From a virus, in the IMG/VR virus record IMGVR_UViG_3300017917_001063, positions 1 to 22,434 of that record: a stretch of 22,434 nucleotides of DNA; one strand, written 5' to 3'. Shown here one piece after another: positions 2,216-8,743 of the stretch. The translations under genes and the position numbers were made by a program. Position 1 is the first letter of the stretch; every line of letters starts with the position of its first letter. Below the pieces are notes generated by a model. The model did not search any database. It saw only the letters and a program-made list of their open reading frames with translations, and was not told the origin of the DNA.

Positions 2216-2767
2216 TTACTTACAATATTCTGGATATTTATCATACCAAGACTTATATTTATTGTAGACAAATGAACTTGTATAGTTACCCTTGTGCCTA
2301 CCTTTTCCATCTATATCCCAGGGGTAGAATGTTTTTCCATTCTGAGATATCTCATACGCAATCATAATATTATAGTTCTTATCAAGCATCCTTGATGTAT
2401 TCCACCAAGGTTGGTTTCCCCATGCTGCACGATTGAACTGAAATACTCCATAGTCTCCTGTTGATGAGACAGCATCTGCTCTTCCTCCGCTTTCTCTCAT
2501 TGCAATTGACCATGCAATTCTTAGTCCATTTTTTCTAAAACCAGCCTTGTATAAAGACTTAGCTAAAGAATTTTTGCATCCAAACTGCTGCTTGGATTTC
2601 TTTGCTGGATAAAATACAACGGCTGGTTTAACGACCATGACCGTCGCAGTTGGTGCAGACTGAACATACACTTGTTCGTTTGCAGCATTTGCATTAGATA
2701 CTATTCCAGTTGCTGAGAATAGCATTGTAGATGCAAATAATGCGCCTAGCAGTTTAGTTTTCGTCAT
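2216..2767 (-). CDS. Secreted lysozyme/transglycosylase-like endolysin
   Basis: This 183-residue protein probably cuts peptidoglycan during lysis. It opens with a signal peptide (basic MTKTK, hydrophobic core, likely cut after ANA at 28), then a short linker to about residue 60. The catalytic region contains AWSIAMRESGGRADAVSS with candidate catalytic Glu92, then GDYGVFQFN and AAWG, typical of the transglycosylase/goose-lysozyme-like fold. Cys64 and Cys182 could form a disulfide outside the cell. I chose ATG at 2767 because AGGAGG (2772-2777) is four bases upstream and the signal peptide begins there; an in-frame ATG at 2809 lies near the predicted -10 region. A signal peptide would allow Sec export without the holin. 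It could instead be a virion or accessory wall hydrolase. Confidence 0.85.
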   Translation of the reverse strand: MTKTKLLGALFASTMLFSATGIVSNANAANEQVYVQSAPTATVMVVKPAVVFYPAKKSKQQFGCKNSLAKSLYKAGFRKNGLRIAWSIAMRESGGRADAVSSTGDYGVFQFNRAAWGNQPWWNTSRMLDKNYNIMIAYEISQNGKTFYPWDIDGKGRHKGNYTSSFVYNKYKSWYDKYPEYCK

Positions 2768-2905: not shown

Positions 2906-2949
2906 ATATTAGTAGTATATCTTTTCCCTCCCACCACCCTGAAATCCTA

Positions 2950-3186
2950 TCATGCTTTTTGGCTTTTAGCAAGTGCAATATAAATCTTTTTTATAGTATC
3001 AAGACCAGGGTATATTTTACTCTTTGATAGAGTATCATAAAAATATACATCATCGTTTTCATCTAACCTTGGTATTATAAAGCTTCCTCCAGGGGTGTTG
3101 TCAATACCTGGAAACTTTAATTCTTCTGCTTCGCCATTCTTTACCAAATTGTAATATGAATGAACCTCTTGAATCGTCAATTTCAT
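2950..3186 (-). CDS. Unknown 78-residue protein, leftward
   Basis: I do not recognise this protein. It is small and soluble, rich in Lys, Asp and Tyr, with no membrane helix, cysteine pair or clear DNA-binding motif; the middle contains GIDNTPGGSFIIPRL, and the C-terminus looks helical. It is probably real, because AAAGGAAG lies four bases before ATG 3186 and a TGATAGAAT promoter (3237-3229, leftward) lies upstream. The promoter is interlocked with that of the reductase gene, so the two genes may be expressed in a mutually exclusive way. It may be read together with the lysin, since no terminator separates them, although the lysin seems to have its own promoter. A small regulator is possible, but only as a guess. 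Confidence 0.65.
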   Translation of the reverse strand: MKLTIQEVHSYYNLVKNGEAEELKFPGIDNTPGGSFIIPRLDENDDVYFYDTLSKSKIYPGLDTIKKIYIALAKSQKA

Positions 3187-3205
3187 GGAACTTCCTTTTC
3201 TTTAC

Positions 3206-3237
3206 TGGTAGAATATATCTCATCCCATATTCTATCA
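3206..3237. promoter_or_regulatory. Face-to-face divergent promoter pair
   Basis: TGGTAGAAT (3206-3214) reads rightward into the reductase gene, and TGATAGAAT (3237-3229) reads leftward into the 78-residue gene. The arms TGGTAGAATAT and ATATTCTATCA form a near-perfect dyad with a 10-base spacer. Both transcripts would start near 3221-3222, so each polymerase would cover the other's -10. Confidence 0.6.
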
Positions 3238-3253
3238 AAGGAAGTGTTTTATT

Positions 3254-5197
3254 TTGTCTCTCATTAACGAAAACGACGGAACCATTAAGGACCATTATAG
3301 AAACTTTATTCATTTAAGCAGATACGCAAGATGGATTGAATCTCAAGGAAGAAGAGAAACCTGGGTTGAAACAGTAGATAGATATATCTTGTTTATGAAA
3401 AATCACCTTGTTTCTAATTATAAGTACGATGAAAACGATAAAATATTTAATGAAGTTTACGATGCAATCCTAAATCATAGGATAATGCCATCAATGAGAG
3501 CCATGATGACTGCTGGCCCCGCACTTGAACGAGATAACATTGCTGCATATAACTGCTCATTTATAGCTGTTGACTCAGTTCGTGCATTTGATGAAGCAAT
3601 GTATATTCTTATGAATGGTACAGGTGTCGGATTCTCAGTAGAGCAAAAATATATAGATCAGCTTCCAATCATTGCTGATGAATTTTTTAATACTGAAACA
3701 ACAATAGTTGTCGATGATTCAAAGCTTGGATGGGCAAAGGCATACAAGGAGTTAATAGCTCTTCTTGTTCAAGGTCAAGTTCCAAACTGGGATATGTCAA
3801 AGGTAAGGCCAGCAGGAGAAAGACTAAAGGTTTTTGGTGGCAGGGCTAGTGGACCAGAGCCATTAGATATGTTGTTTACATTTACAGTAGATACATTTAA
3901 GAGTTCCAGAGGACGTAGACTTAAATCAATTGAAGCACATGACATAATGTGTAAAATTGGAGAAATAGTTGTTGTTGGTGGAGTACGACGATCAGCACTA
4001 ATATCTTTGTCAAATCTTGATGATTTCGAAATGGCAAAGGCAAAGTCTGGACAGTGGTGGGAGGATAATGGTCAACGTGCATTAGCAAACAACTCTGCTG
4101 TTTATAACATGAAACCAAATACAGCACAATTTTTAAGGGAATGGAGGAACCTATATGAATCTAAATCGGGTGAGCGGGGAATTTATAATATGGATAGTGT
4201 TCGTAAGCATATTGATAAGTTCGGGCGTCGTGATTCTTCTAAAGTAATGGGAACAAATCCATGTGGTGAAATTTTATTGAGGCCAAATCAATTTTGTAAT
4301 TTAACAGAAGTTGTTATTGAGTACTCAGACACAGTTGAAGACCTTATAAGTAAGATAAGGCTTGCAACAATTCTAGGAACATGGCAGAGTACTCTTACAA
4401 ACTTCAAGTATATAAGAAAGTCATGGAAGGATAACTGTGAAGAAGAAAGACTTCTAGGTGTTTCTTTGACTGGAATCTTTGGAAATAAGATAACTTCAAC
4501 AAATAATAGTATACTTGCAGACACTCTTGATTTGCTTAGAGAAAAGGCGGTATTAGCAAATGAAACAGAGGCAGATAAACTAGGAATTCCTCATTCTGCT
4601 TCAATTACATGTGTGAAACCATCTGGAACTGTATCTCAGCTAACTGGTGTGTCAAGCGGTATTCATCCATGGTATGCACCATACTATCTAAGATCTGTTC
4701 GTGGAGATACAAAAGATCCACTAACAACATTTCTTAAAGATTGTGGTATTCCAAATGAACCAGATGTTATGAAGCCAAATGATACTACAGTATTTTATTT
4801 CCCAATCAAGGCTCCAGAAAACGCAATAGTGACAAAGAATCTATCTGCAATAGATCATCTTGAGATGTGGAAGACATATCGCAATCATTGGACAGAGCAT
4901 AATCCATCTGTAACAATTAATATACGAGAAGATGAGTGGATTCGTGTAGGGGCATGGGTATATGATAATTTTGATGAAGTGGGCGGAATATCGTTTCTTC
5001 CATATTCAGAGCACTCATATAAGCAAGCGCCATATCAGGAGATAACAGAAGAAGAATACAACGAGTGGATAGCAAAGATGCCTGACTCTATCCCATGGCA
5101 AATGCTTTCTCTTTATGAGTTTGAAGATGGTACTACTGGTTCACAGGAACTTTCATGTGTTGCTGGAGTATGTGAAATAGTTGATATAACGAAATAA
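3254..5197 (+). CDS. nrdJ: Adenosylcobalamin-dependent ribonucleoside-triphosphate reductase, class II monomeric
   Basis: The enzyme reduces ribonucleotides to deoxyribonucleotides with a B12-generated radical, supplying DNA precursors. The residues known from Lactobacillus leichmannii RTPR are recognisable: Cys101 (in AYNCSF) and Cys348 as the redox pair, Cys337 in NPCGE as the thiyl radical site with Asn335 and Glu339, and the C-terminal reducing pair Cys635/Cys640 in SCVAGVCE. Other family segments include GGVRRSALIS (about 242-251), LLGVSLTG and VKPSGTVSQLTG. At 647 residues it is about 90 shorter than the 739-residue RTPR, part of the loss lying between Cys101 and Cys337 near the allosteric region. 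TTG at 3254 is the start, nine bases after AAAGGAAG (3237-3244). B12 must come from the host or environment. The gene sits oddly between lysis and tail genes. Confidence 0.93.
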   Translation: MSLINENDGTIKDHYRNFIHLSRYARWIESQGRRETWVETVDRYILFMKNHLVSNYKYDENDKIFNEVYDAILNHRIMPSMRAMMTAGPALERDNIAAYNCSFIAVDSVRAFDEAMYILMNGTGVGFSVEQKYIDQLPIIADEFFNTETTIVVDDSKLGWAKAYKELIALLVQGQVPNWDMSKVRPAGERLKVFGGRASGPEPLDMLFTFTVDTFKSSRGRRLKSIEAHDIMCKIGEIVVVGGVRRSALISLSNLDDFEMAKAKSGQWWEDNGQRALANNSAVYNMKPNTAQFLREWRNLYESKSGERGIYNMDSVRKHIDKFGRRDSSKVMGTNPCGEILLRPNQFCNLTEVVIEYSDTVEDLISKIRLATILGTWQSTLTNFKYIRKSWKDNCEEERLLGVSLTGIFGNKITSTNNSILADTLDLLREKAVLANETEADKLGIPHSASITCVKPSGTVSQLTGVSSGIHPWYAPYYLRSVRGDTKDPLTTFLKDCGIPNEPDVMKPNDTTVFYFPIKAPENAIVTKNLSAIDHLEMWKTYRNHWTEHNPSVTINIREDEWIRVGAWVYDNFDEVGGISFLPYSEHSYKQAPYQEITEEEYNEWIAKMPDSIPWQMLSLYEFEDGTTGSQELSCVAGVCEIVDITK

Positions 5198-8734: not shown

Positions 8735-8743
8735 TGGTACAAT
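8735..8743 (+). promoter_or_regulatory. Extended -10 promoter giving a predicted leaderless mRNA
   Basis: The bases read TGGTACAAT. The hexamer TACAAT ends at 8743 and ATG is at 8750, the same six-base gap as at 381/388. No Shine-Dalgarno site is present. A second TATAAT (8728-8733) overlaps the previous stop codon. Confidence 0.6.

Follow-up and report, generated by a model that had tools for sequence, protein, structure and literature searches.

The face-to-face promoters of the coliphage 186 lysis–lysogeny switch were reportedly described by Dodd et al. in 1990. The messages from these two promoters share tens of bases, and their products are regulators. In RP4, the promoters trfAp and trbAp also face each other and one is able to inhibit the other; the inhibition is exerted by elongating complexes and is relieved when trfAp is repressed by KorA/KorB (PMC7314908). 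A further class, the prokaryotic bidirectional promoters, is defined by starts lying 7–25 bp apart (PMC10268837), with separations of 18, 10 and 23 bp being common (PMC12825309).

The locus analysed here lies in a virus record of 22,434 bases (the window, meaning this whole stretch of DNA), which carries structural genes, a holin, a reductase and a lysozyme-like gene. The ATG at 3186 of a leftward gene for a 78-residue protein is separated by 67 bases from the TTG at 3254 of the rightward reductase gene. With an extended −10 defined as TGN plus TANNNT ahead of a gene, one was found on each strand of this intergenic region. The rightward element, TGGTAGAAT (3206–3214, + strand), consists of TGG and TAGAAT, with the hexamer at 3209–3214, and would serve the reductase gene. 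The leftward element, TGATAGAAT (3237–3229, − strand), consists of TGA and TAGAAT, with the hexamer at 3234–3229, and would serve the 78-residue gene. The rightward promoter in the window has no good −35 (best match 3/6), a deficiency for which its TGG probably makes up, and the leftward promoter in the window has no recognisable −35 (best match 1/6). Ribosome-binding sites could be read from the sequence for both genes, AAAGGAAG (3237–3244, + strand) for the reductase and AAGGAAG (3191–3197, − strand) for the 78-residue protein.

Together the two facing −10 elements make an imperfect dyad at 3206–3237. Its arms, TGGTAGAATAT (3206–3216, + strand) and ATATTCTATCA (3227–3237), are 11 nt long with one mismatch (91% complementary) and are separated by a 10-nt spacer. 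The original prediction of a near-perfect dyad with a 10-base spacer is therefore true of the 11-nt arms, the spacer between the two 9-mers being 14. Placing each start 7 bp beyond its −10 gave predicted transcription starts at 3221 on the + strand and 3222 on the − strand, each ±1–2 nt, in agreement with the start positions proposed at the outset.

Like the coliphage 186 promoters, those of the window are aimed at each other between two phage genes. However, the predicted overlap of their messages is at most a few bases, and their products, a reductase and a zinc-ribbon-like protein, include no known regulator. The likeness to RP4 is limited in the same way, as no KorA/KorB-like regulators were seen in the window. 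With the bidirectional promoters of Warman, Grainger and colleagues the locus shares close −10s on opposite strands, and would share the exclusion of one polymerase by the other and the divergent messages, which in that class are often those of two genes (PMC12825309, PMC10268837). The window has two separate extended −10s, whereas a bidirectional promoter has one symmetric −10.

Within the window, the facing pair is moderately unusual. One pair of facing TGnTAGAAT sites with a gap of −2 to 20 was observed, compared with 0/300 dinucleotide shuffles. With the looser TGnTAnAAT, at least one facing pair was present in 3.7% of shuffles, and with TGnTAnnnT the three pairs observed were equalled in 33% of shuffles; the looser motifs were not significant. 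As a bare inverted repeat the dyad is unremarkable, being one of 32 such repeats in the window, many of them overlapping, compared with 6–21 per shuffle in six shuffles. The plus-strand TGnTAnAAT sites of the window are nevertheless concentrated upstream of genes, 7 of the 10 having a gene start no more than 50 nt downstream (binomial p = 2e-8). These window statistics are suggestive only, and it is the comparison with relatives that is decisive; it shows that relatives can settle the status of a motif too short to reach significance within a single genome.

Relatives of the reductase were taken from IMG/VR, and relatives of the small protein were collected as well. All small-protein loci were head-to-head with the reductase gene wherever the contig extended far enough, and a bottom-strand extended −10 was present in 44/44 distinct intergenic regions, compared with 7.3 expected from shuffles of the same sequences. 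Leftward motifs were then counted in a region of fixed position ahead of the reductase gene. A leftward TGN followed by a hexamer with at least 5/6 matches to TATAAT was present in 53 of the 55 distinct regions with the small gene and in 0/41 regions without it; after clustering at 85% identity, the counts were 27/29 clusters with the gene and 0/38 without. At a looser threshold of 4/6, the motif was found in 54/55 regions with the gene and 7/41 without. One of the two exceptions, L023, has TGATAGATT, the hexamer of which matches at 4/6 positions; in the other, L128, the reductase start is displaced by an insertion and the fixed region misses the −10. Because the 5/6 threshold was set after the 44/44 intergenic result had been seen, and because the contrast between regions with and without the gene covers few independent gains or losses on the reductase tree, we place no weight on the Fisher p-value of this contrast as evidence of independent events.

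The distance between the facing elements differs among the clades of relatives. The gap between hexamers is 11–15 in clades A and B, the window having 14. In clade D it is 3, and in clade C the −10s overlap by 2 bp (gap −2). By the 7-bp rule, the predicted starts are separated by −2 to +2 bp in clades A and B (−1 in the window), by 10 bp in clade D and by 15 bp in clade C. The predicted starts of clades C and D lie within the 7–25 bp range that defines bidirectional promoters, whereas those of the window and of clades A and B lie outside it. The shared or overlapping −10 of that class is absent from the window, clade C alone having −10s that overlap. Many relatives have TTGACN at 16–17 bp upstream of the rightward −10. 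On the leftward side, clades A and B yielded no −35 beyond one in L040 that matches at 4/6 positions; in clade C, TTGATT stands at 17 bp. One gene pair with interlocked promoters at different spacings, together with natural controls that have no leftward gene, constitutes a natural series that enables a direct test of how spacing affects polymerase competition at interlocked promoters, and does so in phages for which promoter data are scarce. The insertion in L128 is itself a natural experiment on spacing, its extra sequence shifting the reductase start by ~43 bp with both facing −10s kept.

To follow how the two elements evolve, parsimony changes were counted on a tree of reductase proteins. 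In the left arm, 0 changes were counted at T, G, T, A, A or T, 5 at the free N, 2 at the third hexamer position, and 3–7 over the flanking positions 9–19 (the spacer and further upstream). In the right arm, the hexamer TA.AAT underwent 0 changes in 37 rows, the third position alone varying (6 changes). This pattern of change is the signature of two −10 elements. The original prediction of a facing promoter pair, serving the reductase on one side and the 78-residue gene on the other, with near-coincident predicted starts, is thus supported by a leftward −10 that tracks the leftward gene and evolves like an extended −10.

We consider it very probable that the locus consists of two facing sigma-70-type promoters that can be bound by only one polymerase at a time, with simple competition, not a dedicated switch, as the most likely effect. 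The analysis establishes the sequence, its conservation and the dependence of the leftward −10 on the leftward gene, while promoter activity, start sites and steric exclusion are inferred. The rightward promoter, TGG-TAGAAT, would start the reductase message at about 3221, while the leftward promoter, TGA-TAGAAT, an extended −10 with no −35, would begin transcription of the 78-residue gene near 3222, and the two messages would diverge with almost no overlap. Each promoter would sit within the first 40 bp that the other transcribes and would be covered by a polymerase bound at the other. With overlapping footprints, two polymerases could not occupy the site together, and this geometry makes it likely that polymerase binding is mutually exclusive. 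When highly active, the stronger side would mildly damp the other, and the tight packing would chiefly reflect genome compactness. In the five E. coli bidirectional promoters tested, one direction at basal activity responds little when the other is weakened, and competition appears only once one direction is raised (PMC12825309). This lack of basal competition leads us to expect mild competition, not a switch. By the same analogy, an increase in the output of one promoter upon mutation of the other's −10, as originally expected, is not a safe expectation unless one side is strong.

The facing geometry could instead be a selected regulatory switch, in which exclusive polymerase binding would let either the reductase or the small protein be expressed during infection, the choice perhaps resting with a regulator of phage or host origin. 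In favour of a switch, the facing arrangement has been kept across the family in three spacings (gaps of 11–15 and 3, and an overlap of 2), and it is accepted that polymerases exclude each other sterically at sites of this kind (PMC12825309). However, no regulator or conserved operator was found in the sequence, the distance between the −10s is not constant, any two promoters placed within 62–76 bp must overlap whatever their role, and basal competition was negligible in the five E. coli cases. We therefore regard a switch as unlikely. We are equally doubtful of its more specific form, a mutual-exclusion module under selection, through which nucleotide reduction and the small zinc-ribbon-like protein would be inversely coupled, with the exclusion kept while the leftward −10 was relocated between lineages.

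Much less likely again is a reading of the dyad as a repressor's palindromic operator that overlaps the −10 elements only secondarily. The near-perfect 11-nt arms in the window are what such an operator would provide, and the facing promoters of E. coli bioA/bioB, which have an operator between them, are a comparable case. The symmetry is not conserved, however, the arms being TAGAAT against TAAAAT or TATCAT and their distance ranging from 15 to −2, and the fixed positions are exactly those of an extended −10. Since the arms and the spacing change independently, a palindromic operator does not fit. Slightly less probable still is a locus in which the rightward promoter alone is real, the leftward motif arising incidentally from the reductase leader and its ribosome-binding site. 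The leftward element does lack a −35 and lies beside a conserved ribosome-binding site, but leaders without the leftward gene keep a ribosome-binding site and never have the motif (0/41), and in clades C and D the leftward −10 is placed elsewhere, away from the ribosome-binding site. An RNA element was also considered and rejected, as the Rfam match was at chance level and neither predicted message holds both arms.

The rightward gene (3254–5197, + strand) encodes a ribonucleotide reductase (phrog_367) and has a TTG start, where some relatives have ATG. Among isolated phages, its closest relatives are in Streptomyces phages such as Liandry (64% identical; family Stanwilliamsviridae), which makes an actinobacterial host likely. 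A search of genome contigs for the host returned only distant reductases, in Patescibacteria MAGs. The 78-residue protein (2950–3186, − strand) belongs to a small zinc-ribbon-like family and has lost its cysteines in this phage; clades B, C and D retain them, and the window protein shares their absence with the other clade-A proteins. The window protein has no Pfam match and lacks zinc-binding Cys/His residues. One relative, L034, just passes the cut-off for the DnaG CHC2 zinc ribbon (PF01807; 25.1 against 24.9 bits), and matches to PF01807 were found in 20/41 family members at E up to 1, which is a weak link. With Foldseek, no significant match was obtained for a model of the window protein or of a cysteine-bearing relative; VIA-align paired it with Rpb9 zinc ribbons as well as other folds at Z of about 3, which is uninformative, and a PDB sequence search returned nothing. 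Distant relatives of the small protein are encoded on the minus strand of Streptomyces phages. In one of these, BillNye (L309), the distant homologue (2489–2704, minus strand) has genes for a transglycosylase, a glycosyltransferase and a reductase nearby, which suggests a gene order that is shared but rearranged.

The lysin, a secreted lysozyme-like (SLT_3) protein encoded at 2216–2767 on the − strand, had been proposed as a possible member of the leftward unit, but the comparison places it outside. It has a putative promoter of its own, TTGACA-18-TAGACT (2829–2800, − strand), which is separate from the facing pair; similar TTGACA-type elements occur in most of the clade-A relatives. In clade B, the place of the lysin after the small gene is taken by a convergent gene. 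The conserved leftward unit is the small gene alone.

Several other elements of the window were observed. A G-rich element, GGGTGGTGGGAGGG (2926–2939, minus strand), single-copy in the window, directly follows the small gene and is itself followed by an AT-rich hairpin. Clades A, C and D have it behind the small gene in the form GGGTGG(n)GGGnGGGAATAGAT, and it is missing from loci with a convergent gene at that place. The element is a possible G-quadruplex; a role as terminator or origin is a guess. At TGATACAAT (373–381, + strand) and TGGTACAAT (8735–8743, + strand), the −10 ends 6 nt before the ATG at 388 and 8750, respectively, so that the predicted start is the A of the ATG and the messages of these two genes are possibly leaderless. 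Finally, at 340–381 and 993–1033 on the plus strand, a terminator-like hairpin is followed immediately by a TGnTAnAAT site and then by a gene, forming a terminator–promoter cassette.
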